This document shows positions 378-19,347 of a stretch of DNA of 64,000 nucleotides, piece after piece. Positions within the stretch are counted from its first letter, which is position 1. Every line of letters begins with the position of its first letter. Under the pieces are notes generated by a model, which saw nothing but the letters and a program-made list of their open reading frames with translations, made no database searches and was not told the origin of the DNA. Made by a program: the position numbers and the translations under genes. This DNA is from Candidatus Bipolaricaulis sibiricus (GTDB taxonomy: Bacteria; Bipolaricaulota; Bipolaricaulia; Bipolaricaulales; Bipolaricaulaceae), in assembly GCA_004102645.1 (NCBI GenBank), contig CP034928.1:372001-436000 (forward strand). The letters run 5' to 3'.

Positions 378-1697
378 CTAGATCCTCCCCCACAGGGCGC
401 GGGCCGCCTCCCGGGCCGCGGCCAGCGCTGTCCGTTCGTCGAGGCCCGTCACCACCCCGTCCCGGAGGCGGGGAACCCCGGCGACGAGCACCGTCCGCGG
501 CCGGACCCCCTCAGAGATCGAACCGAACAGGAGGTGGGAGAGGAGGCTCCCCGCGTCGAGTGGGGTCGGGGGCACGTAGTCCCACACCACGAGGTCCGCC
601 GCGAACCCCGGAGTCACCTTCCCCATCGGAACCCCGAACGCCCGCTCGGCAAGGCGATAGTTCTCGCGGAGGATGCCCAGGAGTTGGGGGTCGGGGAGCG
701 TGGTCGGACTCCCCGAGGCGTGGTGGGCGAGAAGCCGGGCGGTGAGCGCCTCGGTGAGGAGGTCGGACCCGAACCCGTCCGTCCCCAGGGCGACCCGGAT
801 TCCTTTCCCGAGCATCGCCAGGACAGGTGCGGCCCCCACAGCGTTGTTCATGTTCGAACGGGGGTTGTGGACCACCGTCCCCCCCCGCGCGGCGAGGAGG
901 TCGAGCTCCGCCCCCGAGAGCTGGATCCCGTGGACCAGGAGCGACTCCTCCCCGAGGATCCCGAACCGGTCCAGCCGCTCCGCCGTGCGTACCCCGTGCT
1001 TGTGGAGGGCATCGACGGGGTCCTCCTTCCCCTCTGCGAGATGGACGTGGTACCCGAGGCCCAGTTCCTCCGCCGCGGCCCGCGCCCGGCCGAGCGTCTC
1101 GTCGGACAGGGTGAACGAGGCGTGGAGCCCCATGTGGGCGGACGTGAACCCGGGGATCCGGTCCTCGCGGGCGAACCGGACGTTTTCCGCGATCCCCGCG
1201 TCCCGCTCTCCCGATCCCCCGCGGTCGGTGACCTCGTAGCACAGGTCGGCCCGCAGCCCGACCTCGATCAGGGCCCGCTTGAGCTGGGCGAGAGACCCTT
1301 CGATCGCGGTCGGCGAGGCGTGGTGGTCGAACAGGGCCGTCACCCCAGCCCGGAGGTGCCCCAGCGCCCCCACGACTCCGGAGTGGTACACGCCGTCGAG
1401 GTCGAGGGCCCGGTCGAGCTTCCACCACAGCTGCTCCAGGATTTCCCCGAACGAGGTCGGATCGAACCGCCGGAGGGGGACTCCTCGAGCGAGGGCGGAG
1501 TAGAGGTGGGCGTGGGCGTTGACGAGCCCCGGCGTGACGAGCCGGCCGCCGGCATCGACGACCTCCGCGCCCGGGACCGCCGGGGCCGGTCCGGGCCCAG
1601 CTCGCGCGATCCGATCTCCTTCCACCACGAGGTGGCCGCTCTCCCAGTACGTACCGAACAGGTCACCGACCCGCGCGCTCGTGATCACCTGTGCCAT
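378..1697 (-). CDS. ssnA: SsnA-type amidohydrolase/deaminase
   Basis: A 439-residue metal-dependent hydrolase of the cytosine deaminase/TrzA superfamily. The first metal ligands are in the HAHLYSALARG motif (His62 and His64). Further ligands are in the HMGLHASF and HVHLAEG segments and in the late VALGTDGFGSD segment. The stretch FDHHASPTAIEGSLAQL is typical of SsnA rather than of guanine or adenosine deaminases. SsnA is one of the conserved enzymes of anaerobic purine-degradation clusters; it acts in the cytosol and its exact substrate is not settled from sequence. It follows ade by 31 bases. A TAGACT box ends six bases before the ATG and there is no Shine-Dalgarno sequence, so a second, leaderless transcript may begin here. 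The -35 region is poor. Confidence 0.85.
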   Translation of the reverse strand: MAQVITSARVGDLFGTYWESGHLVVEGDRIARAGPGPAPAVPGAEVVDAGGRLVTPGLVNAHAHLYSALARGVPLRRFDPTSFGEILEQLWWKLDRALDLDGVYHSGVVGALGHLRAGVTALFDHHASPTAIEGSLAQLKRALIEVGLRADLCYEVTDRGGSGERDAGIAENVRFAREDRIPGFTSAHMGLHASFTLSDETLGRARAAAEELGLGYHVHLAEGKEDPVDALHKHGVRTAERLDRFGILGEESLLVHGIQLSGAELDLLAARGGTVVHNPRSNMNNAVGAAPVLAMLGKGIRVALGTDGFGSDLLTEALTARLLAHHASGSPTTLPDPQLLGILRENYRLAERAFGVPMGKVTPGFAADLVVWDYVPPTPLDAGSLLSHLLFGSISEGVRPRTVLVAGVPRLRDGVVTGLDERTALAAAREAARALWGRI

Positions 1698-1728
1698 GGC
1701 CTGAGTCTACCCCCCTCTGTCCCCCAGA

Positions 1729-3507
1729 CTACACGAACGGGGAGACGATCTCCCCGCGCTCGACGTCCACCAGACCGCGGTCCGTGACCCGCAACGCGGG
1801 GATCACGGGCAGGGCGAGAAGCGATAGCGTCATCAGCCCGTCGGCGAGCCGTACCCCACACGCCCGCAGGGCGGCGTGCACCGTTGCCAGCCCGGCCGCG
1901 ACTTCCTCAGCCGGTCGGTCGGAGAGGAGCCCCGCGATCGGGAGCGGGAGGAAGGCCACCACCTCCTCGCCCCGGACGACCGCGATCCCGCCGCCCACCC
2001 GGGCGACGTGGTTTGCGGCCCGTGCCATCGCTTCGGGATTCGTTCCTACGATGAGGAGGTGGTGGCTGTCGTGGGCCACGGTGCTCGCCACCGCGCACCC
2101 CGGTTTGAGCCCCAGGCCGACGAGAAGCCCGTGTCCGATCCGACCCGATCCGCAGTGGCGCTCGACAACGGCCACCCGCGCGACCTCGGGCGGGGTCGCG
2201 ACCTGCCCGTGGTGCACGGGCAGTCGGACCCGCCTCTCCCGCGTGGGAGCCTGGTGTTCGATGAGCTCGATGGCCCGAACCTCGACGTCCCCGGTGGCGA
2301 TCGGGGCTCGGATCGCAAAGTCCGAGGCCGAGAGCGGCCGGTCTAGCCGAACCGTTCCCCGAGCCCAGTCCGGGTACGGGAACCGGGGGAGGGGGACCTG
2401 CAGCTCTCCAGCCCTGGCCACGACCCGGCCCGAGGCGATCACGGTGTCCACGGTGAACTGCTCAAGGTCGGACACGATCAGGATGTCGGCAACCCGACCC
2501 GGGGCGATCGCTCCCACGTCGCGATCCAGGCCGAAGTGCTCCGCCGTGTTTAGCGTGGCCATCGCAATGACCGTAACGGGAGGTACACCCACTGCAATCG
2601 CGGTCCGGACCACGTCGTCCATGTGCCCATTCCGGAGAAGGGTTCGCGCGTCCCGGTCATCGGTGGCGAGGAGAACGCGGCGGGGGTCGAGCCCCAGCTC
2701 TGTCACGGCCCTGAGCCCCTCGATGAGGTCCTGCCACGCCGCACCTTGGCGCAGGATCGCCCGCATCCCCTGCCGGACGCGGGCGACGGCGTCCTCGGCC
2801 CGCGTCCCCTCGTGACAGTCGGCCGGGCCGCCTGCGGCGTAGGCGTGGAACGGCCGGCCGAGGTCTGGGGATGCGTAGTGGCCCCCCACGACCTTCCCCG
2901 CCCGCAGCGCGGCGGTGATCTTCGCGTGTACGTAAGGATTTCCGCCGATCACACCGGGGTAGTCCATCACCTCCCCCAGGCCGATCACCCCGGGCCAGGA
3001 CAGGCCCTCGGTTACCTCGGCTGGCCCGACCTCCGCCCCTGGGGTGTCCAAGCCCTGCACGGCGGGGACGCACGACGGGATCTGCACGTAGACCTTGAGC
3101 GGGAGACTCCCCGCCTCCTCCAGGAACAGCTGAACCGCGCGGAGCCCGAGCACGTTCGTGATCTCGTGGGGGTCGGCGAACACCCCGGTCGTTCCCCGGG
3201 GGAGGACGGCCCGGGCGAACTCGGTTGGGGTGAGCATCGAGCTTTCGACGTGGACGTGGGCATCGAGGAGGCCGGGGACAAGGTACCGGCCCGCGGCCTC
3301 GATCACGTGTGTGTTCGGCCCGATCGCTGGGCCAGCGTCGGGGCCGCAGTACGCGATCCGATCGCCGAGGACGGCGACATCGGTTCCGGCGAGGACTTCG
3401 CCGGAGCAGACGTTGACCCACCGGCCGTTCCGGACGACGAGGTCGGCCGGCCGCCGGCCCGCGGCTACGGCCGTGAGGTCCCGCGTGACATCAGCCCAAA
3501 GAGTCAC
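1729..3507 (-). CDS. ade: Adenine deaminase
   Basis: Catalyses adenine to hypoxanthine plus ammonia in the cytosol. The amidohydrolase signature DAHVHVESSMLTPTEFAR (His84, His86) followed by RGTTGVFADPHEITNVLG is diagnostic of the Ade family. The length of about 592 residues is normal. The frame stays open to a GTG at 3555, but that start would translate through a perfect 12-bp terminator hairpin (3521-3547). I therefore prefer the GTG at 3507, directly after the hairpin tail, which gives a family-like N-terminus. Neither start has a clear ribosome binding site. The gene lies downstream of the nucleoside-binding protein gene and feeds hypoxanthine into the neighbouring purine pathway. Confidence 0.9.
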   Translation of the reverse strand: MTLWADVTRDLTAVAAGRRPADLVVRNGRWVNVCSGEVLAGTDVAVLGDRIAYCGPDAGPAIGPNTHVIEAAGRYLVPGLLDAHVHVESSMLTPTEFARAVLPRGTTGVFADPHEITNVLGLRAVQLFLEEAGSLPLKVYVQIPSCVPAVQGLDTPGAEVGPAEVTEGLSWPGVIGLGEVMDYPGVIGGNPYVHAKITAALRAGKVVGGHYASPDLGRPFHAYAAGGPADCHEGTRAEDAVARVRQGMRAILRQGAAWQDLIEGLRAVTELGLDPRRVLLATDDRDARTLLRNGHMDDVVRTAIAVGVPPVTVIAMATLNTAEHFGLDRDVGAIAPGRVADILIVSDLEQFTVDTVIASGRVVARAGELQVPLPRFPYPDWARGTVRLDRPLSASDFAIRAPIATGDVEVRAIELIEHQAPTRERRVRLPVHHGQVATPPEVARVAVVERHCGSGRIGHGLLVGLGLKPGCAVASTVAHDSHHLLIVGTNPEAMARAANHVARVGGGIAVVRGEEVVAFLPLPIAGLLSDRPAEEVAAGLATVHAALRACGVRLADGLMTLSLLALPVIPALRVTDRGLVDVERGEIVSPFV

Positions 3508-3520
3508 GAGAAGAAGAGAC

Positions 3521-3547
3521 AGGGCGGCTGCCGCAGGCAGCCGCCCT
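3521..3547 (-). terminator. Hairpin after the BMP-protein gene
   Basis: A perfect 12-bp stem with a three-base loop (AGGGCGGCTGCC / GGCAGCCGCCCT) begins 14 bases after the stop of the binding-protein gene. On the minus strand it is followed by GTCTCTTCTTCTC, a pyrimidine-rich tail rather than a pure T run. It probably ends most transcripts after the binding-protein gene and protects that message, with readthrough supplying ade. Confidence 0.75.
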
Positions 3548-3561
3548 GATGACACGTCGAT

Positions 3562-4713
3562 CTACGGTTCTCCGGGCCACGGGCCAACGACCCCGTTGGC
3601 CGCCCACTCCATGGTGATGAGGTGATCGTAGCTCATCCACATCCCCGCCGGAACGACGAGGTTGCCCTTCCGGTCGTACACCGGTCCCTCGAACGGATCG
3701 AACGTGATCCCCGGGTCCGCGAACTGGTTGTGGCGCAAGAACACGAGGTCGTAGACGGAGATCCGGCCGAAGTCGGGATGGTTGATGACGTACCCCTGGA
3801 GTGGGGCCACGTACTTCGGGTTGACCAACATCCCCATCTCTGCGCCCATCGTGGCTGCGTTCTGGGCCATCAGCCACCAGTAGTCGACATGGGCGAGGTT
3901 CTTCGTGGTGTAGGTTCCGTTGTGGACCTTGACCAGGAAGTCGTCGTAGATGACCTCCCAGTGGACGAGCTGGCCGGATACCACGTAGTCGGGCGCGAAC
4001 GCGTACATTGGGGAGTAGTGGGCGAACGAGGTGAACCCCTTCTCCGCTGCCACCTGGATCACTGTGGGGGAGTCCTCGGTAAACGCGAACACGTCACAGC
4101 CTTCGGCGATGAGGGCTTCGGTGGCCTCTTTCGCCGCCGCGGGGTTGTACCACTCGTAGATCCACCGCACGTGGACCTCAGCGGTCGGGTTGACCTCCCG
4201 CACGCCGATGGTGAACGCGCTGATGTGCCTCTTGAGCTCGGGAATCGGGAACGCACCGACGTACCCGATCTTCCCCGTCTTGGTGAGGGCTCCCGCCATG
4301 AGGCCGTTCAGGTAGTACACCTGGTAGAAGTCGGCCATGTAGGTGGCCATGTTCGGCGCACGCTTGAACCCGGACGCGTGGGCGAAGATCACGTTCGGGT
4401 ACCGCTGGGCGGCCGCGAATGTCCCGTCGATGAACCCGAAGCTCGTGGTGAAGATCACGTTGCAGCCCTGGCGCACGAGTTGGTCGATGTAGGTCTCGAC
4501 CTCGCCCTCGGGTACAGACTCCACGTACACTGTGCTCAGCCAGTCGTACTTCTCATCCACGATCCGTCGTGCCACATCGTGGGCATGGGTCCAGCCGTAG
4601 TCGCCGATCGGGCCGACATAGATGAACCCGGCCTTGATGGCCTGCGCGCCCAGGCCCAGGGAACCCACTACCGCCATCGCCACCATCAGCAACACCACTT
4701 TCCGCACGTTCAT
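3562..4713 (-). CDS. BMP-family nucleoside-binding protein of an ABC transporter
   Basis: A 383-residue exported solute-binding protein. Residues 1-25 form a Sec signal peptide (basic start, VVLLMVAMAVVGSLGLG, then AQA) with no lipobox cysteine. The mature start AIKAGFIYVGPIGDYGWTHAH is the standard opening of the Bmp/PnrA basic-membrane-protein family, whose characterised members bind purine nucleosides. It is preceded by an excellent ribosome site (AGGAGGTGA five bases before ATG). It follows the two permease genes and ATPase gene of the same system and is closed by a strong hairpin, so it is likely made in excess over the membrane parts. Confidence 0.9.
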   Translation of the reverse strand: MNVRKVVLLMVAMAVVGSLGLGAQAIKAGFIYVGPIGDYGWTHAHDVARRIVDEKYDWLSTVYVESVPEGEVETYIDQLVRQGCNVIFTTSFGFIDGTFAAAQRYPNVIFAHASGFKRAPNMATYMADFYQVYYLNGLMAGALTKTGKIGYVGAFPIPELKRHISAFTIGVREVNPTAEVHVRWIYEWYNPAAAKEATEALIAEGCDVFAFTEDSPTVIQVAAEKGFTSFAHYSPMYAFAPDYVVSGQLVHWEVIYDDFLVKVHNGTYTTKNLAHVDYWWLMAQNAATMGAEMGMLVNPKYVAPLQGYVINHPDFGRISVYDLVFLRHNQFADPGITFDPFEGPVYDRKGNLVVPAGMWMSYDHLITMEWAANGVVGPWPGEP

Positions 4714-4788
4714 CGGTCACCTCCTGAGAGATATCGCCGTCCACCGCTCACAGTAGGCCACTCGTTTTTTGCCCGTTCTCACCCCCTC

Positions 4789-5718
4789 TCACCGTTCGCC
4801 ACGTACGTAGGGAAGCCCAAGGGCGCCGGGAGCGCCCCTTCGCCGTCGAGCCCCGCCGAACCCGCTCACGGCCAACACCAGGATCGCGAACGCATAGGGC
4901 ATCATCTTCAATAGCTCGGGAGATACGTAGGCCTGGAGGCGGAACGACAGGTGGTACAGAGCGCCGAAGAAGAAGGCTCCCCAGATGGCCCGGAGCGGGT
5001 TCCAGGATGCAAAGATGGTCAGAGCAATCACGATCCATCCCATCCCCGCGGTCATCCCCTCCGTCCACGACGGGCGATAGGCCACCGACAAGTAGCCTCC
5101 ACCCACGCCGGCGAGGAGCCCGCCCACGGCGACACATAGGTAGCGCACAAGTCCGACGTGAATCCCCACTGCGTCCGCGGTGGCGGGTGACTCACCCACC
5201 GAGCGGACCACGATCCCCCATCGGGTTCGGAACAGGACAATCCAGAGCACCACTGCGGCAGCGATCCCGAGATAGGTAAGGATCGTCTGGTCGCGGAACA
5301 CCATCGGTCCGAGGACGGGGATGTCACCCAGCACGGGGACGACGATCGGACCGAGCGGAGCACGGAGCGGACGCCCTTCCCACCCCCGTCCCAGGAGCCC
5401 CGCCAGCCCCAGCCCGAACAGGGTCAGGGCGAGCCCGGATACGTACTGGTTGGCGCGGAGGGTGACGGTGAGAAACGCATGCCAGAGTGCAGCTACCATT
5501 CCCACGACGGCCGCGGCGAGAAGCCCCCACCCTGGGTGACCGTACGTCTGCGCGACGGCGAACCCGGCGTAGGCTCCGAGGATCATCATCCCCTCTACCC
5601 CCAGGTTGACCACCCCTGACCGTTCGGCGTAGATCTCACCCAGGGTTCCCCACAGGAGGGGAACCCCAAACGCAAGTGCTCGGCTCACCGTGCCTATGAG
5701 CCAGCTTGTCCAGTCCAT
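4789..5718 (-). CDS. Nucleoside ABC transporter permease (NupQ-like)
   Basis: A 309-residue polytopic membrane protein of the branched-chain amino acid/ribose/nucleoside permease class (BPD_transp_2). It contains the family opening LLWGTLGEIYAERSGVVNLG and the later segment WGIVVRSVGESPATADAVG that precedes the loop contacting the ATPase. About eight hydrophobic helices can be read. The start overlaps the upstream permease by 25 bases, which implies translational coupling. Together with the partner permease it forms the membrane channel of the BMP-type transporter. Confidence 0.88.
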   Translation of the reverse strand: MDWTSWLIGTVSRALAFGVPLLWGTLGEIYAERSGVVNLGVEGMMILGAYAGFAVAQTYGHPGWGLLAAAVVGMVAALWHAFLTVTLRANQYVSGLALTLFGLGLAGLLGRGWEGRPLRAPLGPIVVPVLGDIPVLGPMVFRDQTILTYLGIAAAVVLWIVLFRTRWGIVVRSVGESPATADAVGIHVGLVRYLCVAVGGLLAGVGGGYLSVAYRPSWTEGMTAGMGWIVIALTIFASWNPLRAIWGAFFFGALYHLSFRLQAYVSPELLKMMPYAFAILVLAVSGFGGARRRRGAPGALGLPYVRGER

Positions 5719-6800
5719 TGCCTCTCCTTGGCAGCCACCCGAACCCGCCAGTACATGAGGAGATCAGAGCTGATAAGCGAGAACAGAATCAGCCCGTTGA
5801 ACACGCCCGTGATCTGGAACGGAAGCCCGAGGGTGGTCTTCATGAGGTCGCCCGCGGCAAAGATCAGACCGAACAGGAGGGCGGTGAAGATCGCTGCCAC
5901 CGGGCTTCCCCGTGCGAGCCAGGCAACGATGATCGCCGTGTACCCATACCCCATCGAGATGTGACTCGGGCTGCGCAACCGCCAGTGAACACCGGCCACC
6001 TCGCCGACGCCAGCCAGCGCCGCCAGGCCGCCCGACACAACCAGGGCCAGGGCAAGGACGGTGGTGAAGTTGATCCCTGCGTAGCGCCCTGCGTCCGGAC
6101 TCTGACCCACAACGCGGATCTCGTACCCCAGCCGTGTCCTCGCCAAGAGGAGCGCCACGAGGATCGCGGCAGTCACACCAACAACGAGCGTCGGCCAGTG
6201 GACTCGGGTCCCACTGAGGAACGGGAGCCGAGCGGCGACCGGGAACATGTCCGTGTAGGCGAACCCCCGCATCGTCGGCCCCTTCCACGGCCCGTGGACG
6301 AGCCACTCGACGATGTAGGCCATGATGTAGTTCATCATCAAGGTGGAGATGACCTCGTTCACGCGCAGCTTCACCCGCAGGAGGGCTGGGATCACTGCCC
6401 ACAGAGCCCCGGCCCCGAAACCGGCGAGGAACATCAGTGGCAGGCGAAGCCCGTCAGGTGTTGGGACGAACAGGGCGACCCCACTCGCCGCGACCGCCCC
6501 AGCCAGAAGTTGCCCCTCGGCCCCAATGTTCCAGAACTGGGCGCGGAACGACAGGGTCAACCCCACCCCACACAGGATGAGGGGGATCGCCCGGCGGACG
6601 ATATCCGAGAGCCCCCCCACCGTCCCCAGGGTTCCCCGGCCGATCTCCGCGTACGCTCGCCATGGGCTCACCCCGTACGCCCAGAACACCAGCGCGGCCA
6701 AGAGGAGAGCCACTGCCACCGCAAGAAGTGATACCCCGAAGACCACGTGCCGGGGAGGGGTAAGCCGTCGCTCGACGATGAACGGCCCCAGGCGCTTCAT
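5694..6800 (-). CDS. Nucleoside ABC transporter permease (NupP-like)
   Basis: A 368-residue membrane protein, the second permease of the BMP/purine-nucleoside importer. Hallmarks are the segment LSFRAQFWNIGAEGQLLAGA and the stretch VNEVISTLMMNYIMAYIVEW, both conserved in permeases of this class. It starts four bases inside the end of the ATPase gene and overlaps the next permease. The arrangement ATPase, permease, permease, binding protein is typical of this family. Confidence 0.88.
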   Translation of the reverse strand: MKRLGPFIVERRLTPPRHVVFGVSLLAVAVALLLAALVFWAYGVSPWRAYAEIGRGTLGTVGGLSDIVRRAIPLILCGVGLTLSFRAQFWNIGAEGQLLAGAVAASGVALFVPTPDGLRLPLMFLAGFGAGALWAVIPALLRVKLRVNEVISTLMMNYIMAYIVEWLVHGPWKGPTMRGFAYTDMFPVAARLPFLSGTRVHWPTLVVGVTAAILVALLLARTRLGYEIRVVGQSPDAGRYAGINFTTVLALALVVSGGLAALAGVGEVAGVHWRLRSPSHISMGYGYTAIIVAWLARGSPVAAIFTALLFGLIFAAGDLMKTTLGLPFQITGVFNGLILFSLISSDLLMYWRVRVAAKERQWTGQAGS

Positions 6801-8341
6801 CGTCCATCTCCAGCGGTCGCGGGTGCCCGGCTCTCGCCGGCCATCATCAGGCCGATCTCCTCAAGCCTAGCCTCGCCCGCAGCAACAACCCCCATGATCT
6901 CGCCCCGGAACAGGACCGCTATCCGATCGGCCAGTTCTGTGATCTCCTCTAGGTCTTCGGATACGAGGAGGATCCCCGCGCCCGCCGCGCGCTGGCGAAG
7001 AAGGATCTCCCGAATCTGTTCTGTGGCGCCCACATCGAGACCATAGGTAGGGTGAGCAGCGATCACCAAGGCAGGCTCTCCTGAGAGCTCGCGGGCGAGG
7101 ATCAGCTTCTGGATGTTCCCCCCCGAGAGGAGCTTGGCCGGGGTCCGCGGGCTAGGCGTCTGAATCCGGTACTCCTCGATCGCGAGACTGGCGAAGCGGC
7201 GGACCGCAGCCAGCCGGAGGACCCCACCTCGACAGAAGGGGGGACGGTGGTGCCGCTTCAGAACCAGGTTCTCTTCTACTGACAAGCCGGGTACAATCCC
7301 CATCCGGATCCGCTCTTCGGGGATGTGGGCCACGCCCGCGTCGGACAGCCGGCGTGCGCCAGCCCGCGTCATGTCCTTCCCCAAGATGCGCACCCGACCG
7401 CGCTCAGCGCGACGCAGCCCCGTCAGGACCTCCACGAGCTCACGTTGCCCGTTCCCCGCTACGCCGGCCACCCCGAGGATCTCCCCCCGACACAGGGCGA
7501 ACGAGATTCCTCTGAGCGCGGGTGTCCCCCGGTCGGACCGGGCGTGAAGGTCGTCCACCGTGAGGGCAGCGTCGCCCGGATCGCACGCCTTCTTGGTGAG
7601 CTGGAATACGACCTCCCGGCCCACCATCATCCGTGCCAGGGCGGCCTTGTCCGTCTCCGCAGACGCGACCGTCCCCACCACCGCACCGCGACGCATCACC
7701 GTCACTCGGTCGGCCACGGACAAGACCTCGTCGAGCTTGTGGGAGATGAAGATCACCCCGTGGCCCTCCGCCTTCATCCGCTCCAGGACCTTGAACAGCT
7801 CCCTTGCCTCCTGGGGGGTGAGGACGCTCGTCGGCTCGTCGAGGATGAGGACCTCTGCCCCGCGGATGAGCGTCTTGAGGATCTCCACCCGTTGCTGTTC
7901 ACCGGCTGACAGCTCCCACACCTGCCGGTCGGGGTCCACGGGAAGGCCGTACCGTTCCGACAGTTCCCCGAGTCGGCGGCCCACGGCTCGTGCTGGAGAC
8001 CAGAACGGTGTTCCTGACAGTCCGAGGGCTACGTTCTCGGCGACGGAGTGCGGCCCGACGAGCTTGAAGTGTTGATGGACCATTCCGATCCCGAGGGCCA
8101 GCGCATGGCGTGGCGATCGGATGCTGACTCTCTTCCCCTTGACCCAGATCTCGCCCCCGTCAGGTCGATAGAGGCCGAAGAGGATGTTCATGAGGGTTGT
8201 CTTCCCGGCGCCGTTCTCCCCCAGCAGGGCATGAACCTCGCCCGCTCGGATGTCGAGTGTGACGCGATCGTTGGCCAACACTCCGGGAAACGCTTTGGTG
8301 ATGTTCTGCAGCTGGACAGCTGCCCGGGCTGCCTCCACCAT
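6797..8341 (-). CDS. Nucleoside ABC transporter ATPase with two nucleotide-binding domains
   Basis: A 514-residue fusion of two ABC domains, as in RbsA and NupO. The first half has a canonical Walker A (GENGAGKTTL), signature (LSAGEQQRVEI) and Walker B (LILDEPTS). The second half has a degenerate Walker A region (GVAGNGQRELVEVL), a clear LSGGN signature and a Walker B-like stretch ending AAHPTYGLD, a normal asymmetry in this family. The open frame extends to 8377, but the ATG at 8341 matches family N-termini and lies exactly six bases after a TATACT box, so the operon message is probably leaderless. It is the first gene of the leftward purine operon. Confidence 0.88.
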   Translation of the reverse strand: MVEAARAAVQLQNITKAFPGVLANDRVTLDIRAGEVHALLGENGAGKTTLMNILFGLYRPDGGEIWVKGKRVSIRSPRHALALGIGMVHQHFKLVGPHSVAENVALGLSGTPFWSPARAVGRRLGELSERYGLPVDPDRQVWELSAGEQQRVEILKTLIRGAEVLILDEPTSVLTPQEARELFKVLERMKAEGHGVIFISHKLDEVLSVADRVTVMRRGAVVGTVASAETDKAALARMMVGREVVFQLTKKACDPGDAALTVDDLHARSDRGTPALRGISFALCRGEILGVAGVAGNGQRELVEVLTGLRRAERGRVRILGKDMTRAGARRLSDAGVAHIPEERIRMGIVPGLSVEENLVLKRHHRPPFCRGGVLRLAAVRRFASLAIEEYRIQTPSPRTPAKLLSGGNIQKLILARELSGEPALVIAAHPTYGLDVGATEQIREILLRQRAAGAGILLVSEDLEEITELADRIAVLFRGEIMGVVAAGEARLEEIGLMMAGESRAPATAGDGR

Positions 8342-8347
8342 GGCCTC

Positions 8348-8377
8348 AGTATAGCGACGGCCCGAACCAACGGTCAA
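8348..8377 (-). promoter_or_regulatory. Promoter of the leftward purine operon, leaderless type
   Basis: On the minus strand TTGACC (8372-8377) is followed after 18 bases by TATACT (8348-8353). Six bases then separate the -10 box from the ATG of the ATPase gene at 8341, which places the predicted transcription start on the A of that ATG. There is no Shine-Dalgarno sequence. Confidence 0.6.
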
Positions 8378-8378
8378 G

Positions 8379-8408
8379 TTGCCTGACAGGATGGGCAGTG
8401 GCTATACT
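8379..8408 (+). promoter_or_regulatory. Promoter of the rightward molybdenum hydroxylase operon, leaderless type
   Basis: TTGCCT (8379-8384) is followed after 18 bases by TATACT (8403-8408). A GTG start codon lies seven bases further on, at 8416, with an ATG in frame at 8425. The -35 box sits one base from the -35 box of the opposite promoter, so the two operons are fired back to back from about 60 bp. Confidence 0.55.
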
Positions 8409-8415
8409 GCGCACG

Positions 8416-9273
8416 GTGAGCGCGATGTACGGGGGGCGGATCCAGCGGTTCCACGTGGCAAGGGACGTGGAAGAGGCGCTGTCGCTGCTCTCCGCGTACG
8501 CTGGGGCGGGGGCGCTCCTCGCGGGTGGCGTCGACCTCCTGCGTGGCCCTCTGGTTCGTGTGACTGGGTTGATCGACATCACTCGGATTGGCCTGTCTAC
8601 GGTTGCCGAGACACGGGGGGGCCTGACGGTGGGTGCCACCGCCACGTTGACGCAGCTTCTGGAGAGCCCTATGGCTGCTCGGTACGGAGGGGGGATCCTT
8701 GCCCAAGTCCTTGGCGACGTGGCCGTCCCACCGCTGCGGAACATGGCCACGATCGGAGGGGCGCTCGTGTCTGCTCACCCGTGGGGCGACATCCCCACCG
8801 CCCTCGTTGCCCTAGGGGCTGAAGCGCATCTGCACGGCGACAAAGAGGCGAAGTCCCTCGTCGAGGACCTCTACCGGGGACAGTTCCGCAAGGTCTTCCG
8901 GAGCTCGGTGGTCACGGAGATCGTGTTCCCGCCGTGGGAGGGGGCGTTCGCCCATGAGAAGGTAGGCCGCACGCGGTCCGACATCGCCCTTCTCAACGCG
9001 TGCTGCGGGGTGGGACTGCGGGATGGCTCCATTGTCTGGGCGCGCGTGGCCGTCGGGGCTCGGCCCGACCGAGGGGAACGGCTTCCAGAGGTCGAACAAG
9101 CGCTGCAGGGGAGAACACCCAGCGATGCCCTGTGGAAGGAGATCGGGGAGTTGGTGGAGGCGCGTGTGGAAGTGGGGGACGATCGTCGTGCAGGACGGGC
9201 GTGGCGTCGGAGGACAGCAGGGGTGCTCGTGTGCCGCGCCCTCAAGCGCGCGGCGCGGAGGACGGCGACGTGA
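8416..9273 (+). CDS. Molybdenum hydroxylase FAD-binding subunit (YgfM/XdhB/CoxM type)
   Basis: About 285 residues of the FAD_binding_5 plus C-terminal CO-dehydrogenase flavoprotein fold. The FAD pyrophosphate loop appears as LLAGGVDLL, and the second FAD contact as LRNMATIGGAL. It passes electrons from the Fe-S subunit to an acceptor in a cytosolic molybdenum hydroxylase. The frame is open from 8398, but the promoter overlaps that start, so GTG 8416 or ATG 8425 is preferred. Its stop overlaps the start of the Fe-S subunit gene (GTGA). In enterobacteria ygfM lies beside ssnA and ygfK; here it is divergent from them. Confidence 0.88.
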   Translation: MSAMYGGRIQRFHVARDVEEALSLLSAYAGAGALLAGGVDLLRGPLVRVTGLIDITRIGLSTVAETRGGLTVGATATLTQLLESPMAARYGGGILAQVLGDVAVPPLRNMATIGGALVSAHPWGDIPTALVALGAEAHLHGDKEAKSLVEDLYRGQFRKVFRSSVVTEIVFPPWEGAFAHEKVGRTRSDIALLNACCGVGLRDGSIVWARVAVGARPDRGERLPEVEQALQGRTPSDALWKEIGELVEARVEVGDDRRAGRAWRRRTAGVLVCRALKRAARRTAT

Positions 9274-9743
9274 AGCTCTCGTTCGAGCTCAATGGGGCCC
9301 CGCAGTATCTAGAGGTGGATCCGGGCGAGCGACTCCTGTCCCTCCTCCGTCAGTTGGGGATGAAGTCGGTCAAGGAAGGCTGCGGAACGGGTGACTGCGG
9401 TGCGTGCACGGTTCTCGTGGAGGGGCGCGCGATGCGGTCCTGCCTCATGGTGGCCCCGCAAGTTCAAGGCAGACGCGTGCTCACGTTGGAGGGGCTGGGA
9501 ACCCTGGACAAGCCGCACCCCCTACAGAAGGCGTTTCTGGAAGCGGGGGCAGTGCAGTGCGGGTTCTGCACGCCGGGGATGGTCCTTGTCGCCTACGAGC
9601 TCCTCACCCGCGATCCGAGCCCGACGCCCGAGCAAGTGAGGCAGGCGATCTCCGGCAACCTCTGCCGATGTACGGGGTACGTCAAGATCGTGGACGCGGT
9701 GCTCCTTGCTGCCCAGTGGAAGCGGGAGGGGAAATGGCGGTAG
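9270..9743 (+). CDS. Molybdenum hydroxylase [2Fe-2S] subunit
   Basis: A 157-residue small subunit with two [2Fe-2S] clusters. The N-terminal plant-ferredoxin-type cluster is in GCGTGDCGACTVL, and the C-terminal cluster uses the CGFCTPGM and CRCTGYVKI cysteines. These are the standard motifs of the xanthine dehydrogenase/CO dehydrogenase small subunit. It relays electrons from the molybdenum centre to FAD. The GTG start overlaps the previous stop and the end overlaps the large-subunit ATG by ten bases, so the three genes are translated as a unit. Confidence 0.92.
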   Translation: MKLSFELNGAPQYLEVDPGERLLSLLRQLGMKSVKEGCGTGDCGACTVLVEGRAMRSCLMVAPQVQGRRVLTLEGLGTLDKPHPLQKAFLEAGAVQCGFCTPGMVLVAYELLTRDPSPTPEQVRQAISGNLCRCTGYVKIVDAVLLAAQWKREGKWR

Positions 9744-12055
9744 AGACACGAGAGAGGTTGGCGGTCGGAAGGAGCGTGACGAAGGTCGACGGGCCGTCCC
9801 TCGTCGTCGGGAAACCCGTGTTCACCCTTGACCTTGACGTTCCCGGAGCCCTGGTGGGGAAGATCCTCCCCTCTCCTCACGCCCACGCCGAGATCGTCTC
9901 GGTCGACACCGCGGACGCCGAGGCCGTTCCTGGGGTCCGGGCGGTTCTCCACTTCGGGAACGTTCCCCGCGTTCCCCACACCACCGCCGGCCAGGGTTGG
10001 CCCGAGCCTTCCCCCTACGATACTGTCCTGTTCGACCGAAAGGTCCGGTTTGTGGGTGACCGGGTGGCGGCGGTGGCCGCGGAGACTGAGGAAGCCGCAG
10101 AGGAAGCGCTGGCGAAGATACGCGTCGAGTACAAGGTCCTTCCCGCCGTTTTCTCCCCCGAGGAAGCCCTCGCTGACGGCGCTCCCGTGATTCATGATGA
10201 GCCCGACGCTGAGGGGATCTACGACGCCAAGCACAACATCGCCGCCGCAGTCGACATCCCCGTTGGCGACGTTGCAAGCGCTCTGGCCGAGGCTCACGTC
10301 ACGGTAGAAGCCACGTGTGAGATCCCGTACTCCCAGCACGCGGCGATCGAGCCGCACTGCGTGATTGCCTACTTCGACGAAGCGGGCCGGCTCGTCCTGC
10401 GCAGCTCGACCCAGGTCCCGTTCCACGTCCGCCGGATCGTGGCCCGCGTGGCGGGTCTCGATCCAGCCCGCATTCGTGTGATCAAGCCGCGCATCGGGGG
10501 AGGCTTCGGCTCCAAACAGGAGATCCTTCTCGAACCTGTGGCGGCGCTCCTCGCCCTGCGCACCGGGCGGCCGGTGCGGATGGCCTACTCGCGGGAGGAG
10601 GTGTTCGTCGCGTCTCGGACACGGCACCCCATGCGGGTCTCTGTGAAGCTGGGGGCGGGCAAAGACGGTGTGCTTCAGGCCATCGACATGGAGGTCCTCT
10701 CGAACACCGGGGCCTACGGAGCCCACGCGTTGACCGTGCTGTCCAACGTGGGGTCGAAGACCCTGCCCCTCTACAACAAGGCGCCGCACCTTCGGTTCCA
10801 CGGGAAGGCGGTGTACACGAACCTCCCCGTCGCCGGGGCGTACCGCGGGTACGGCGCGACCCAGGGGTACTTCGCCCTCGAGGTGGCGATGGATGCACTT
10901 GCCGAGAGACTGGGAATCGATCCTGTGGAGCTTCGGCGACGCAACCACACTCGAGTTGGGGAGACGTCGCCCATCTTCGAGAAGATCGGCGAAGGCCGGG
11001 AAGGGACAGCTCAGGTCATTCGTTCGTGCGCGCTGGCGGAGTGTCTGAAGGTGGGCGCGGCGCGGATCGGATGGAAGGAGAAGCGAGGCCAGAGGCAGGA
11101 GAATGGGCCGTGGGTTCACGGAGTAGGTATGGCCTGTGCGATGCAGGGCTCGGGGATCACCGGCGTGGACATGGCCGCAGCGACTCTCGTCATGCAGGAT
11201 GACGGGAGCTTCCGCCTTCTCGTCGGGGCGACCGACCTCGGGACGGGGTCGGACACGATCCTCGCGCAGATCGCCGCCGAAGAACTGGGGGTTCCCGTGG
11301 ATCGCGTTCTCGTCTATTCCTCGGACACCGACTTCACCCCGTTCGACACGGGTGCCTATGCGTCGAGCACCACGTATGTGTCCGGCAACGCTGTCCTCCG
11401 GGCAGCGCAGAGCGTGCGCGGCCAGATCCTCGCAGTCGCTGCGGCTGCGCTCGGGGAGAGGCCCGAGGTGCTCAGGATCTCTGGCGGCATCGTGGAGAGC
11501 CGCAGGACGGGGAAGCGCCTGACGTTGAGCGAGGTTGGCCATCGCGTAACCTACGTGGTCGATCAGAAGCAGATCGCAGCCACGGAGTCGTTCCTCTGCC
11601 CGGAGTCGCCACCCCCGTTCGCCGCGTTCTTCTGCGAGGTTGCTGTGGACCGAGAGACGGGCGTCGTGCGGGTGGTGCGGTTCGTGGTTGCCGCCGACTG
11701 CGGAACGGCGATTCATCCCAAGGCAGCCGAGGGCCAGCTCGAGGGAGCGATCCTCCAAGGGATCGGCCATGCCCTGTGTGAAGAGATGCAGTTCTCCGCG
11801 AGTGGCCGCTGTGTGAACGCCGGGTTCTTCGACTACAAGCTTCCGACATCCCTCGACGCGCCCCAGATCGAGGCGATCCTCGTTCCGAGCGAGGAACCGA
11901 CGGGTCCGTGGGGGGCGAAGTCGATCTCCGAGATCGGGATCAACGGTCCGCTCCCCGCGATCTCGAATGCAATCTATGACGCGATTGGGGTGCGCTTGGT
12001 CCGCGCCCCGTTCACACCTCAGCGGGTGCGCTTTGTTCTCGGAGCAAGTCCCTAG
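9734..12055 (+). CDS. Molybdenum hydroxylase large subunit (XdhD/xanthine dehydrogenase-like)
   Basis: A 773-residue catalytic subunit that binds molybdopterin and hydroxylates an N-heterocycle, probably a purine. Visible active-site elements are the QHAAIEP substrate-side segment, the glycine loop PRIGGGFGSKQE, the AYRGYGATQ arginine segment and the late GAKSISEIGINGP segment that supplies the catalytic glutamate. The last motif resembles the XdhD/selenium-dependent hydroxylase group more than classical XdhA. The preferred start is the ATG at 9734, with GGGAGGGGA just upstream. The neighbours (ade, ssnA, ygfK, nucleoside importer) support a purine substrate; xanthine itself is not proven. 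Confidence 0.88.
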   Translation: MAVETRERLAVGRSVTKVDGPSLVVGKPVFTLDLDVPGALVGKILPSPHAHAEIVSVDTADAEAVPGVRAVLHFGNVPRVPHTTAGQGWPEPSPYDTVLFDRKVRFVGDRVAAVAAETEEAAEEALAKIRVEYKVLPAVFSPEEALADGAPVIHDEPDAEGIYDAKHNIAAAVDIPVGDVASALAEAHVTVEATCEIPYSQHAAIEPHCVIAYFDEAGRLVLRSSTQVPFHVRRIVARVAGLDPARIRVIKPRIGGGFGSKQEILLEPVAALLALRTGRPVRMAYSREEVFVASRTRHPMRVSVKLGAGKDGVLQAIDMEVLSNTGAYGAHALTVLSNVGSKTLPLYNKAPHLRFHGKAVYTNLPVAGAYRGYGATQGYFALEVAMDALAERLGIDPVELRRRNHTRVGETSPIFEKIGEGREGTAQVIRSCALAECLKVGAARIGWKEKRGQRQENGPWVHGVGMACAMQGSGITGVDMAAATLVMQDDGSFRLLVGATDLGTGSDTILAQIAAEELGVPVDRVLVYSSDTDFTPFDTGAYASSTTYVSGNAVLRAAQSVRGQILAVAAAALGERPEVLRISGGIVESRRTGKRLTLSEVGHRVTYVVDQKQIAATESFLCPESPPPFAAFFCEVAVDRETGVVRVVRFVVAADCGTAIHPKAAEGQLEGAILQGIGHALCEEMQFSASGRCVNAGFFDYKLPTSLDAPQIEAILVPSEEPTGPWGAKSISEIGINGPLPAISNAIYDAIGVRLVRAPFTPQRVRFVLGASP

Positions 12056-12757: not shown

Positions 12758-13981
12758 CTACTGGCGCAGGTACGTCCTCCGGCGGCCGTAGCGGGAGCGA
12801 GGAGCGCCCATTCGCGATTGGTGAGCATGGGCAGGGGAAACCTGAGCTGAGGTGGCAGCCACCCCGTAGTCGAAGCCCTCCAAGCGGCACGAGGCGATCG
12901 GTTTCCCCACGGCCTTCTCGACCCACCGGCGGAGCAGCTTGTCCGTGGGCGCAGAGAGAGTCAGTGCCTGCCCTGTCTTGGAGATCCGCCCCGTGCGCCC
13001 GACGCGGTGCGTGTAGGCATCGACGCTGTCCGGCATGTCGAAGTTGATGACGTGGGTGATGTCCTCGACATCGATCCCCCGCGCCGCGACGTCTGTGGCG
13101 ACGAGCACCGCGTACTTCCCCGAGCGAAACCCGTCGAGCGCCTCCTGCCGGTCCCGCTGGGACATGTCGCCCTCGATTGCCGCGGCGGCGAACCCGGACC
13201 TGCTGAGGTACGAGGCCAGGCTCTGCGTCCGGCTCCTGGTGCGCGTGAACACGAGCACGCGCCCCGTGGCCGGCCCCCGGAGGAGGGCGAGAAGGAGGTC
13301 GCGCTTGCGGCCCTCGGTGATGGGGTAGAACGCGTGGGACACCGTCTTCGCCGGGGCGGCAGCGTCCACCTCGACCGTGGCCGGATCGCGAAGGATGCTC
13401 CCCGCCAAGCGCCGGATCTCAGGGGGCATCGTCGCCGAAAAGAACAGGGTCTGCCGAGCCCTCGGCAGGAGCGTGAGGATGCGCCGAATGTCAGGGAGGA
13501 ACCCCATATCGCACATCCGGTCCGCCTCGTCGAGGACGAGAACCTCCACGCGCGAAAGGTCGATCGCCCGGTCCCCGTGGAGGTCAAGGAGCCGTCCCGG
13601 GCAGGCGATGACCACTTCCGCACCGCGGCGGAGCGCCATGACCTGGGGCCGCTTGTTCACCCCACCGTAGGCGGCAACGCTGCGGATGCCGAGTTCCTTT
13701 CCCAGCGCGCACACCACCTGATGGATCTGCTCGGCGAGCTCGCGCGTCGGGGCGAGGATGAGGGCTCGCACGTGGCCCCTCTCCCGTTCGGCGAGGTGCT
13801 GGAGGATGGGGAGCACGAACGCGGCGGTCTTCCCGGTTCCGGTCTGGGCAACGCCGATCAGGTCGCGGCCTGCGAGGACAACAGGGATTGCCTTCTCTTG
13901 GATCGGGGTGGGTTGAACGTAGCCAACTGCTTTGATCCCGGACTCAATCCGGGGGTGAAACGAGAACTCCTGGAACTTCAC
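12758..13981 (-). CDS. DEAD-box RNA helicase (RhlE-like)
   Basis: A 407-residue ATP-dependent RNA helicase. The motifs appear in order: Q motif (VQPTPIQEKAIP), motif I (AQTGTGKTAA), Ia (PTRELAEQI), motif II (DEAD), motif III (SAT) and motif VI (HRVGRTGR). A short basic tail (PRSRYGRRRTYLRQ) probably adds RNA affinity. The GTG start at 13981 is supported by AAGGAGG eight bases upstream; the frame is open further but nothing there looks coding. Likely roles are ribosome assembly and RNA turnover. A leader of up to about 270 bases, with no gene, precedes it. Confidence 0.93.
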   Translation of the reverse strand: MKFQEFSFHPRIESGIKAVGYVQPTPIQEKAIPVVLAGRDLIGVAQTGTGKTAAFVLPILQHLAERERGHVRALILAPTRELAEQIHQVVCALGKELGIRSVAAYGGVNKRPQVMALRRGAEVVIACPGRLLDLHGDRAIDLSRVEVLVLDEADRMCDMGFLPDIRRILTLLPRARQTLFFSATMPPEIRRLAGSILRDPATVEVDAAAPAKTVSHAFYPITEGRKRDLLLALLRGPATGRVLVFTRTRSRTQSLASYLSRSGFAAAAIEGDMSQRDRQEALDGFRSGKYAVLVATDVAARGIDVEDITHVINFDMPDSVDAYTHRVGRTGRISKTGQALTLSAPTDKLLRRWVEKAVGKPIASCRLEGFDYGVAATSAQVSPAHAHQSRMGAPRSRYGRRRTYLRQ

Positions 13982-14257
13982 TGAAAGCCTCCTTGGCCTT
14001 CGTGAGCCAAGTCGCACTCTCAGCTCAGCGTCGTTGTCGGCACCCCGCGATTGGGGTATGCGATGCGTTGTTCGGTTTTCTCGAGGGCAGTATACGCGAG
14101 GGCTCCCTCCCCTGCCAGAACCTGCTCCGCCGACTCCCCTGGCGCACGGGGTCGAGGAGCTCACTATGCGGGGCCTGGGCCGCCGAAGCGGATGCCCGCC
14201 GCATGGGACCACTCGAGGCGCGGATGGGCCAGGGCGGGGGCCGCGGCGCGGGACGAT

Positions 14258-14710
14258 CTACGGGGACGGCGCGCAGCCCTCGGCGGCGAGGCGGGCGAGG
14301 CGATCCGCGCGCTCGTTCTCCGCGTGTCCGGCGTGGCCAGCCAGCCAGTGGAAGCGAACCTTGTGGAGCCCGACCAGCTCGTCGAGCTCCCGCCACAGGT
14401 CCTCGTTCGCTACGGGGAGGAGGCGCTTCCCCTCCCGACGCCTCCAATCCTGCGCTTTCCAGCGGGGGAGCCACTCCGTGATCCCGCGCTTGAGGTAGGC
14501 GGAGTCGGTGAACAGGTCCACGTCCGCCGGCTCGCGCAACGCCCGGAGGGCCTCGATCGCGGCCCGGAGCTCCATCCGGTTGTTCGTCGTGTGCCGCTCG
14601 CCCCCGGAGATCTCCTTGCGGTGGGGTCCCGAGAGGAGAACCGCTCCCCACCCGCCGGGCCCGGGGTTCCCGATGCATGCGCCGTCCGTGTAGACCCGCA
14701 CCTTCTTCAC
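14258..14710 (-). CDS. rnhA: Ribonuclease HI
   Basis: A 150-residue RNase H that cuts RNA in RNA-DNA hybrids. The acidic active site is complete: Asp in [16 protein letters not shown], Glu in [11 protein letters not shown], Asp in [10 protein letters not shown] and Asp in [11 protein letters not shown]. The family context residues WLAGHAGH also fit. The GTG start at 14710 gives the normal N-terminus ([10 protein letters not shown]). It has no Shine-Dalgarno sequence and lies eight bases after a TATACC box, suggesting a leaderless or near-leaderless message. It is divergent from the tetR gene. Confidence 0.93.
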
Positions 14711-14718
14711 AGGACGGA

Positions 14719-14747
14719 GGTATAGCTGGTGGCTTCGGTCTTGACAA
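14719..14747 (-). promoter_or_regulatory. rnhA promoter, sharing its -35 box with tetR
   Basis: On the minus strand TTGTCA (14742-14747) is separated by 17 bases from TATACC (14719-14724), and the rnhA GTG follows eight bases later. The -35 hexamer overlaps five of the six bases of the TTGACA used on the other strand. Confidence 0.5.
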
Positions 14748-14769
14748 CATGCGCGCCACGCAGTACTGT
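14741..14769 (+). promoter_or_regulatory. tetR operon promoter
   Basis: TTGACA (14741-14746), 17 bases, then TACTGT (14764-14769). Just downstream are GTGAC half-sites: CTGTGAC at about 14767 pairs with GTCACAG at about 14796, and a GTGAC direct copy lies between them. This could be a TetR autoregulatory operator, although the spacing is wider than usual. Confidence 0.5.
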
Positions 14770-14813
14770 GACCACGTGACCATATATACATGGAGAGTCA
14801 CAGGGATCACACC

Positions 14814-15437
14814 ATGTCCCGACCGATGACGGTGGCTGAGCGGCAGGCGGTTCGGGCTCGACTGCTCCGAGCCGGCCGGGAGCTGTTTGCTCGCTATGGG
14901 CTCAAGAAGACCACGGTAGAGGAGCTGGCGCAGGCAGCGGGTGTTGCCAAGGGAACGTTCTACCTCTTCTTCCCCTCCAAGGAGGCCCTCTACGGCCAGG
15001 TTCTCCTGGACGAGGTCCCGCGGTTGGTGGCAAGGCTTGTCGAGCGATCCTTCGGGGCCACGCCCGACATCCGAGAGGCCCTGGTTCGGTTCCAGGAGGA
15101 GGTGGTGGCGCTCATCGAGAGCGACGAGATCGTGCGGGTGCTCGCTGCGGACCCCCATCAGCCGGCGGAGCTTCTCGAGGGACACCTTGACCTCCAGGAG
15201 TTCCAGGCGCGAGCGATGGAGGCGCTCCGACCGCTGTTCAGCTGCATCCGGACAGCCCAACAGGAGGGTCAGATCGTGGGGGGCGACATCGCTGAGATCT
15301 TCGCCGTGTTGGGGGTCATCAAGCTGGTTGCCTACTACAGAAAGCACATCGCTCCCGACCTGTACCCCCGCCTTGTGAAGCGACTGAGCCGGGTCATCGC
15401 CGACGGTCTGACCTGCCCGGCGGGGACCAAGACATGA
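14814..15437 (+). CDS. TetR-family transcriptional regulator
   Basis: About 207 residues. The N-terminal helix-turn-helix is typical: RLLRAGRELFARYGLKKTTV, then VEELAQAAGVAKGTFYLFFP. The C-terminal ligand domain is unassigned. The frame has an earlier ATG at 14790; ATG 14814 is preferred because AGGGA lies eight bases before it. The stop overlaps the first permease start (ATGA), so this is the first gene of a five-gene export operon that it presumably represses. The inducer cannot be told from sequence. Confidence 0.85.
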   Translation: MSRPMTVAERQAVRARLLRAGRELFARYGLKKTTVEELAQAAGVAKGTFYLFFPSKEALYGQVLLDEVPRLVARLVERSFGATPDIREALVRFQEEVVALIESDEIVRVLAADPHQPAELLEGHLDLQEFQARAMEALRPLFSCIRTAQQEGQIVGGDIAEIFAVLGVIKLVAYYRKHIAPDLYPRLVKRLSRVIADGLTCPAGTKT

Positions 15438-16648
15438 CGGGCATTGTACAGATGGCGTGGAGGAACCTGTGGCGACACAAGGTGCGCACCGGGCTGATGA
15501 TGGGGATCGTGTTCTTCGGGAGCCTGATCGTCCTTCTCATGTGGGGGTTCACCGCAGGGGTGTTCGACTCCCTGATCCGAACCCACGTCGAGCTCGACTA
15601 CGGCGCGGTCAAGATCCACCGGGCGGGATACCGCCTGGATCCCGTCCCGACCCGGGGGTTCACTCCCCCGCAGCTGGAGAGGGTCGTCGCTGCCGTGGAC
15701 GCCGTGCCTGGCGCGACGAGTGCACCGCGACTTGTGGCGTACGGGCTCCTTCGCTCGGCGTACGGGGCGACCGGTGTCGAGATCCGCGGTGTGGATCCGC
15801 AGCGCGAACCCGCGGTGACCCGCGTCGCCGAGGCCCTTGTCGAGGGCCGGTTTCTGCAGGAGCCGGCGGAGGCGCTGCTTGGCGCGCGGGCAGCACGGGC
15901 GCTCGACGTCCGGGTCGGCGAACGGATCGTCTTGCTTTCCCAAGGGCCGGCAGGCACAGCGTCGCGGGGGTTCGTGGTGGTGGGCCTTGTCGCGACCGGA
16001 CTTGCCTCGCTTGACGAGCGGACGGTGCTCGTCTCTCTCTCCGACGCGCAGGCGATGCTCGGGGTGGACGGAGCGACCGAGGTCGCCGTGGCCCTTCCCC
16101 GGGGGGGACGGCACGACCCTGCGGCTGCCACCCTCGGGGCCGAACTGGGCCCGGGGTACGAGGTCCTGACGTTCGCCCGCGGGAACCCCCTCGTCACGGG
16201 GTTCATCCAGGGCAACACCGGTGAGATGGTGCTCACGATGCTCCTCCTCGCCTTTCTCGCGGGGTTCGGGGTGGCAAACACCGTGTTGTTCAGCGTCATC
16301 GAGCGAACCCGCGAGTTCGGGGTCATGGCGGCGCTGGGCATGGGGGCCCGCCGGCTTGCCCTGCTCGTGATCACAGAGTCGGTCATCGTTTCGGCTCTCG
16401 GGTTCGCGGCCGCGGCCTTGGGGGGCTACTTCCTCGTGGGCTACTTCGCCCGCGCCGGGATCCCGCTGGGACCCCTGGCGACGATGATGGCAGAGGTCGG
16501 GATCCCCCCGCGGATCTACGCTGCGGCGGAGGGTTGGCACTGGGGAGCAAGCCTTGTGGTGGTGTTGGCAACGGGCGCCGTGGCGGCGTGGTATCCGGCG
16601 CGGCGGGCAGCGAAGTTGGATCCTGTGGAGGCGATCCGTGAGATCTAG
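15434..16648 (+). CDS. ABC exporter permease, FtsX/LolC-LolE/MacB class
   Basis: A 404-residue membrane protein with the FtsX topology: one N-terminal helix (residues about 20-45), a large periplasmic domain, and three C-terminal helices around residues 260-380. The motif SVIERTREFGVMAALGMGARR before the second helix and the terminal WYPARRAAKLDPVEAIREI are diagnostic. It pairs with the second permease and the MacB-like ATPase downstream. With a LolA-like protein encoded between them, lipoprotein release or envelope-lipid export is the likely job. Confidence 0.85.
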   Translation: MTGIVQMAWRNLWRHKVRTGLMMGIVFFGSLIVLLMWGFTAGVFDSLIRTHVELDYGAVKIHRAGYRLDPVPTRGFTPPQLERVVAAVDAVPGATSAPRLVAYGLLRSAYGATGVEIRGVDPQREPAVTRVAEALVEGRFLQEPAEALLGARAARALDVRVGERIVLLSQGPAGTASRGFVVVGLVATGLASLDERTVLVSLSDAQAMLGVDGATEVAVALPRGGRHDPAAATLGAELGPGYEVLTFARGNPLVTGFIQGNTGEMVLTMLLLAFLAGFGVANTVLFSVIERTREFGVMAALGMGARRLALLVITESVIVSALGFAAAALGGYFLVGYFARAGIPLGPLATMMAEVGIPPRIYAAAEGWHWGASLVVVLATGAVAAWYPARRAAKLDPVEAIREI

Positions 16649-17381
16649 TCGTGTGGGGATGGTCTGGGGGCTTGCGCTGGCCGTGGGCCTCGGTTCGGCC
16701 GGGGCATGGGCAGCGCCCCGGAGCGCTCAGGAGGTCTTGGAGGCTGCCCGTGTCATGTGGCGCGGGGACACGTTCCACGCATCGGTAGCCCTCGAGGTGA
16801 CGCGCGGCGGCGAGACCACGGTCTACCGCCTGGAGCTGTGGGCCGAGGGAGAGGCCCGAGCCCTGGTCCGGGTCCTGGCCCCGGAGAACGACGCCGGCTC
16901 GGGGTACCTGTTGCTGGGGGACGATCTGTGGTACTACGCTCCGGCCCTTGGACGGCCGATCCCCCTCCCGGCGATTGCCCTCCAAGAGGGCCTCTTCGGC
17001 TCGGGGCTTGATCTGGATGATGTGCTGCGAGGGACAGGAGCCGAGGACTACGACGTCGCGCTCTCGCCCGACCAGCCAGAGGACGGGTACCGGCTCGTCC
17101 TCGTGCCCCACTCGGGGGCGGCGACGGTCTATGGTCGGCTGGAGCTCGCTCTCCGCTCTGATCTCGCCCTGCGGGAGATCTGGTACTTTGACCAGCGGGG
17201 CCGGGTCGTGAAGACAGCCCGCGTGAGCGACTTTCTGGAGCTCCCCGGTCGTGTCCTTCCCCGGACAATCACGATCGAGGAGGCGTCCGGCGACCGCACG
17301 GCGGTGGTCTACGAGCGGTTGGTGATCGACGTCCCCCTCGACCCGGCCCTGTTCACCGTGGAGACCCTGGTCGGGCGATGA
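16638..17381 (+). CDS. LolA-like outer-membrane lipoprotein-sorting protein
   Basis: A 247-residue exported protein. The GTG start at 16638 has GGAGGCGAT before it and overlaps the permease end. A signal peptide (MVWGLALAVGLGSAGAWAA) is followed by the fold of the LolA/DUF4292-like family: SAQEVLEAARVMWRGDTFHA, then beta strands including SGYLLLGDDLWYYAPALGR and LREIWYFDQRGRVVKTARV. Such proteins often sit between FtsX-type permeases. It probably carries or binds a lipidated cargo in the periplasm; classical LolA is about 180-200 residues, so this is longer. Confidence 0.75.
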   Translation: MRSSRVGMVWGLALAVGLGSAGAWAAPRSAQEVLEAARVMWRGDTFHASVALEVTRGGETTVYRLELWAEGEARALVRVLAPENDAGSGYLLLGDDLWYYAPALGRPIPLPAIALQEGLFGSGLDLDDVLRGTGAEDYDVALSPDQPEDGYRLVLVPHSGAATVYGRLELALRSDLALREIWYFDQRGRVVKTARVSDFLELPGRVLPRTITIEEASGDRTAVVYERLVIDVPLDPALFTVETLVGR

Positions 17382-19295: not shown

Positions 19296-19347
19296 GGGGT
19301 ATCGTTCTTGGCCCGGAGCGGGCCTTCGCATCCGGTCGAGGAGAGAC

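Follow-up and report, generated by a model that had tools for sequence, protein, structure and literature searches.

Gene content of the divergent locus

The window, that is, the whole 64,000-nt stretch of DNA analyzed here, covers positions 372001-436000 of the single-contig 1.70-Mb genome of Candidatus Bipolaricaulis sibiricus. Two divergent operons meet in it, with the following genes:

6797-8341, minus strand: ABC transporter ATPase (nucleoside-type), first gene of the minus operon (PF00005 twice), predicted leaderless; its ATG (8341-8339) lies 6 nt past the -10 box, a spacing class that is the same in relatives
378-6800, minus strand: remaining minus-operon genes inside the window, namely two BPD_transp_2 permeases, a PnrA-like binding protein, adenine deaminase and SsnA (domain/profile matches)
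8425-9273, plus strand: xanthine-dehydrogenase-type FAD subunit (PF00941, PF03450), from the likelier start ATG 8425, chosen by comparison
9000-12055, plus strand: 2Fe-2S and molybdopterin subunits (in open frames at 9000-9743 and 9404-12055, with the true starts lying further inside; PF00111/PF01799 and PF02738/PF20256/PF01315)

In the profile search of the minus-operon proteins, TIGR01178, NF005540 and TIGR03315 scored above cut-off. The operon continues outside the window with YgfK, and at this far end YgfK is accompanied by further FAD and 2Fe-2S subunits of xanthine-dehydrogenase type, the second such set (L092, G000:C1:353001-373000, about 12969-19448), pointing to a reductive uric-acid route in Bipolaricaulota. 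Judged by its domains, the plus operon encodes the three subunits of a putative xanthine-dehydrogenase-family enzyme; for the 2Fe-2S and molybdopterin frames the nearest NCBIfam model is XdhA, below cut-off. An earlier note on this DNA had called both operons purine operons, and the domain and family matches do place purine-related genes on each side. Most genomes of the same family encode an orthologue of the plus FAD subunit, and the ABC ATPase gene is usually divergent to it. Domain annotation of the purine cluster recognized no regulator gene within it.

Two promoters with neighboring -35 boxes

Four promoter boxes were identified by direct reading, consensus scan and conservation:

8372-8377, minus strand: -35 box TTGACC, which doubles as the extra half-site of the predicted operator described below
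8348-8353, minus strand: -10 box TATACT, its first T 12 nt ahead of the ATG
8379-8384, plus strand: -35 box TTGCCT
8403-8408, plus strand: -10 box TATACT

On the minus strand TTGACC (8377-8372) is followed by 18 nt, TATACT (8353-8348), 6 nt and the ATG; on the plus strand TTGCCT (8379-8384) is followed by 18 nt, TATACT (8403-8408), 7 nt and a GTG (8416-8418). A single base (8378) separates the two -35 boxes, so both promoters fit in about 75 bases and their predicted starts are about 74 bp apart. A consensus scan of 20 kb returned three promoter-like sites, two of which are these, against a shuffle mean of 0.9, a count that is weak by itself. In the tabulated relatives the minus -35 box is TTGACC or TTGACA, and both -10 boxes are TATA-like at 17-19 nt. 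We judged the promoters to be real because of this conservation, which is family-wide and rules out chance promoters. The proposal of the earlier note, two sigma70-type promoters with -35 boxes one base apart, is therefore borne out by direct reading and by conservation in the Bipolaricaulota family. A 9-bp inverted repeat (CAGTATAGC/GCTATACTG), considered as a separate element, turned out to be merely the two -10 boxes. The note had also seen no room for a purine riboswitch, and this holds: no Rfam family was found at the promoter region, where the predicted leaders are 0 to ~10 nt, and in the whole window Rfam gathering scores were reached by two tRNAs only, with no riboswitch or structured aptamer.

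Similar arrangements were seen elsewhere in the genome. At L055:7144 (minus) and L055:7224 (plus), about G000:C1:1387144-1387224, ruvB is divergent to a gene for a PD40 beta-propeller protein, with -10-like boxes 7-8 nt ahead of both ATGs and starts about 80 bp apart. A third divergent pair, at L042:10554 (minus) and L042:10663 (plus), encodes an NfeD-type protein and an MnhE-type antiporter subunit and has -10 boxes 7-8 nt ahead of the ATG. Back-to-back leaderless arrangements may be common in this genome.

Translation starts of the first genes

A TANNNT box some 12 bp ahead of the start codon has been described for leaderless genes (Zheng et al., 2011, PMC3160421). The minus ABC ATPase gene has its -10 box at this distance and no Shine-Dalgarno sequence, and the layout is conserved: in those tabulated species whose minus gene is clear, 5-11 nt separate the -10 box from the ATG (14 in one), mostly without Shine-Dalgarno. 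In 464 kb of this genome (about a quarter of it, with genes called by a crude finder), a TATAAT-like hexamer stands 6-8 nt ahead of an in-frame ATG in 14 cases where about 2 were expected (Poisson P about 2e-8), while GTG starts in the same 464 kb have no such excess. From these data the minus gene looks leaderless or nearly so, and the comparative evidence points to regular use of leaderless ATG genes by Bipolaricaulota, a phylum for which our literature search found no paper on leaderless genes.

The plus gene presents a different picture, which centers on one further feature:

8415-8419, plus strand: GGTGA, predicted Shine-Dalgarno sequence, inside which GTG 8416 falls; it is kept in relatives where that GTG cannot be a start

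GGTGA stands 5 nt before ATG 8425 and can pair with the 3' end of the genome's 16S rRNA (GGATCACCTCCTTT). Read from GTG 8416, the frame meets a stop in two relatives (G005 and G008), and in two others (G018 and G013) this GTG is not in frame, whereas most relatives have GGTGA or AAGGAGG 4-7 nt ahead of an ATG or GTG start located 16-21 nt past the -10 box. A leaderless plus gene starting at GTG 8416 was rejected on the comparative evidence, since that start is not conserved and GTG codons show no leaderless spike; the FAD subunit gene lacks the combination of a conserved start at the predicted 5' end and no Shine-Dalgarno sequence. Because GTG 8416 fails in relatives, the Shine-Dalgarno sequence before the downstream start is conserved and the 16S tail can pair with it, the plus gene most likely starts at ATG 8425 with a ~10-nt Shine-Dalgarno mini-leader. 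The earlier note held that both promoters are leaderless and that neither gene has a Shine-Dalgarno sequence. For the minus gene both statements are supported, given the ATG spacing kept in relatives and the genome-wide ATG spike; for the plus gene the first is not supported, and the second would hold only with GTG 8416 as the start. The plus gene of G019 and G012 starts at an ATG 8-9 nt past the -10 box and looks leaderless, in contrast to the Shine-Dalgarno-led relatives; therefore both modes are found at this promoter within one family, the same promoter having shifted between the two forms among relatives.

A conserved element over both -35 boxes

The earlier reader missed a near-invariant element of 17-19 bp that spans both -35 boxes:

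8371-8389, no strand assigned: conserved element, CTGTCAGGCAACTTGACCG in the minus-strand reading, predicted GntR/FadR-type operator on the basis of conservation and recurrence at gntR
8379-8389, no strand assigned: 11-bp palindromic core TTGCCTGACAG, the portion common to gntR promoters

A 17-bp core, GTCAAGTTG[TC]CT[TG]ACAG, is common to 28 non-redundant sites, with most columns close to 2 bits, although most of these sites were collected by a one-mismatch pattern and the absolute conservation values are hence flattering. The -35/-10 spacers are poorly conserved across the same 28 sites, and nearly all loci chosen by protein similarity alone also have the core. About one site per genome was found in 29 of the 40 family genomes, against one match in 40 genomes for the reversed-pattern control. 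Among the loci chosen by protein similarity, the exceptions are three genomes of genus g13, in which other genes have entered on the xdh side and the core is retained next to the ABC gene, with G035 on a separate contig. The inserted genes (L093, L094, L101) encode an extra permease, a Bmp-like protein and ABC components between the shared promoter and xdh, and the plus promoter in this genus now reads into a second transporter set.

In two genomes of another family (G048 and G091), the element recurs in closely similar form (TGTCAAGTTGTCTTACTG) at L127:2579 and L128:2152, just upstream of the same type of ABC ATPase gene and overlapping the end of a thymidine-kinase-like gene; at L127, TTGACA-17-TAGGAT-6-ATG reads as a leaderless promoter too.

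The element at a distant gntR gene

When the pattern was loosened over 100 genomes of the class, second sites appeared in several family members, at the promoters of divergent GntR-family and PLP-enzyme genes. The second copy in the own genome, CTGTCTGACAGGTTGACAA, is directly upstream of a GntR gene (G000:C1:904270-904983) about 524 kb from the divergon, and lies between the likely -10 box of gntR and its start codon. The encoded regulator has a GntR helix-turn-helix and an FCD effector domain (PF00392 and PF07729 were found in the G006 orthologue, to which the own gene is 84% identical). Carbamate kinase follows gntR, whose divergent neighbor encodes a PALP-family enzyme. The divergent gntR/PLP promoter itself (L121 around 1738-1760 and orthologues) contains a nearly symmetric ATGCTAGCAT that could be a -10 box both ways.

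In the own-genome sample, a weight matrix built from xdh-locus sites only had its best independent match at the gntR promoter (15.7, against 14.0 for the next match). For the 23 closest gntR loci, the top match fell in the gntR promoter in every case, with scores of 8-22 compared to control maxima with a mean of 1.7 and sd of 4.1. After splitting of the matrix, the 11-bp palindrome carried the signal (23/23), whereas the -35 half was on top in 8/23 with control-like scores. The idea that the element is just the two -35 boxes was rejected, as it is the palindrome, not the -35 half, that finds the gntR promoter. An extended motif, itself built from the divergon and gntR sites and those orthologous to them, matches perfectly at exactly two places in the 1.7 Mb of the whole genome, namely these two sites; three-mismatch matches at 576738, 1075383 and 1261189 were treated as chance since the reversed control gave as many. 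Several family genomes with an xdh site show no close GntR match, possibly due to genome incompleteness, and GntR homologues of other families are mostly without the site. Our literature search found no GntR regulator of this gene set. The element over both -35 boxes and its copy at gntR suggest joint control of the two operons by this regulator.

A single-operator divergon as the preferred model

We propose a compact divergon in which one GntR/FadR-type operator (8371-8389) controls both operons as well as the gene for its own regulator, with a leaderless minus mRNA and a Shine-Dalgarno-led plus mRNA; we give this reading a probability of roughly 0.7. From the promoters, the conserved element, its recurrence at gntR, the -10/ATG spacing and the Shine-Dalgarno sequence, all given by the sequence, we infer binding, repression rather than activation, an effector and the transcription start points. 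A dimer of the FCD-type GntR on the operator would overlie the two -35 boxes and deny RNA polymerase access to them, so that the importer/deaminase/SsnA/YgfK operon and the xanthine-dehydrogenase-type operon would be switched together. At gntR, the bound protein would cover the start-point region, which amounts to predicted autoregulation because the site copy lies between the gntR -10 box and start codon. A purine-pathway metabolite may release GntR; import, deamination, xanthine-dehydrogenase-type chemistry and the SsnA/YgfK steps would then be induced. The minus mRNA would begin at its AUG or at most a few nt before it, and the plus mRNA would use GGTGA as Shine-Dalgarno sequence in its ~10-nt leader.

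A rival reading, built on the earlier note, has two leaderless promoters that exclude each other's polymerases and put the operons in competition, with no dedicated operator. The single base between the -35 boxes and the roughly 74 bp between the predicted starts leave little room for two polymerases, and in G019 and G012 an ATG lies 8-9 nt past the -10 box for both genes; yet the plus GTG start is not conserved while the Shine-Dalgarno sequence is, conservation extends past the -35 boxes, and the part shared with gntR is the palindrome and not the -35 half. We consider this explanation improbable as a whole. Polymerase exclusion between the promoters is possible, being feasible from their spacing, and the single-operator model does not need it. 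A slightly smaller chance goes to a shared site that is real and bound by some other regulator, which would control xdh/transporter and gntR alike: sequence cannot tell which protein binds, and some site-bearing genomes show no close GntR match, but the site is at the GntR gene itself in all 23 close orthologues and has the FadR-subfamily form, and no other regulator was recognized in the cluster. It is quite unlikely that GntR acts at this site as an activator or dual regulator instead of a plain repressor; the weak plus -35 box (TTGCCT) makes aid from a bound factor conceivable, but the site overlaps both -35 boxes and the gntR start-point region, positions usually linked with repression.

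The single-operator model turns a promoter layout into a testable regulon of one FadR-type regulator in a little-studied anaerobic phylum, with importer, adenine deaminase, SsnA/YgfK, xanthine-dehydrogenase-type and carbamate-kinase genes as candidate members. A broader picture is tentative, and we hold it somewhat below even odds: regular leaderless ATG expression in Bipolaricaulota would go together with a minimal two-way switch, about 86 bp long, in which the two -35 boxes and the operator of a hitherto undescribed purine/urate GntR share their bases. The regulon of that GntR would link the two halves of an anaerobic uric-acid pathway, which lie far apart.

Comparison with known systems

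A reductive uric acid degradation pathway, including SsnA/YgfK steps, is described for an E. coli gene cluster in the searched text of PMC12507026, which mentions neither Bipolaricaulota nor GntR. The genome studied here likewise has SsnA, YgfK, homologues of xanthine dehydrogenase, carbamate kinase and an enzyme of the PALP family. As differences, the genes are here at two loci, apparently tied by one operator, and the PALP protein matches cysK-type models weakly and not YgeX.

The minus gene resembles the leaderless TANNNT genes (PMC3160421), also reported in Deinococcus-Thermus (PMC12340547), in the distance of TATACT from the ATG, the missing Shine-Dalgarno sequence and the genome-wide ATG spike. 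It differs from them in belonging to Bipolaricaulota, in having a full -35 box and in having a divergent partner that is apparently Shine-Dalgarno-led.

The closest likeness in control is to the FadR subfamily, whose sites have a GT-N3-AC core with an extra half-site 7-12 nt from the center, and in which a single mid-divergon site can serve both operons (Suvorova et al., 2015, PMC4494728). The phylum is absent from the table of that study. Here most copies of the palindrome have the GT-N3-AC form, with an extra half-site about 9 nt from the center. Many relatives (TTGTCTTACAG/A) and the copy at the own gntR (CTGTCTGACAG) follow the rule, while the window copy is one base off, with GC for GT in the left half of its core. 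Unlike the described divergons, the regulator gene is about half a megabase away and the site coincides with both -35 boxes. As in those divergons, a single site lies near the middle of the divergent intergenic region (palindrome center 8384, between the starts 8341 and 8425) and a second at the regulator's own gene. The divergon would be a compact example of an already known type of control, in which only one of the two operons looks leaderless.
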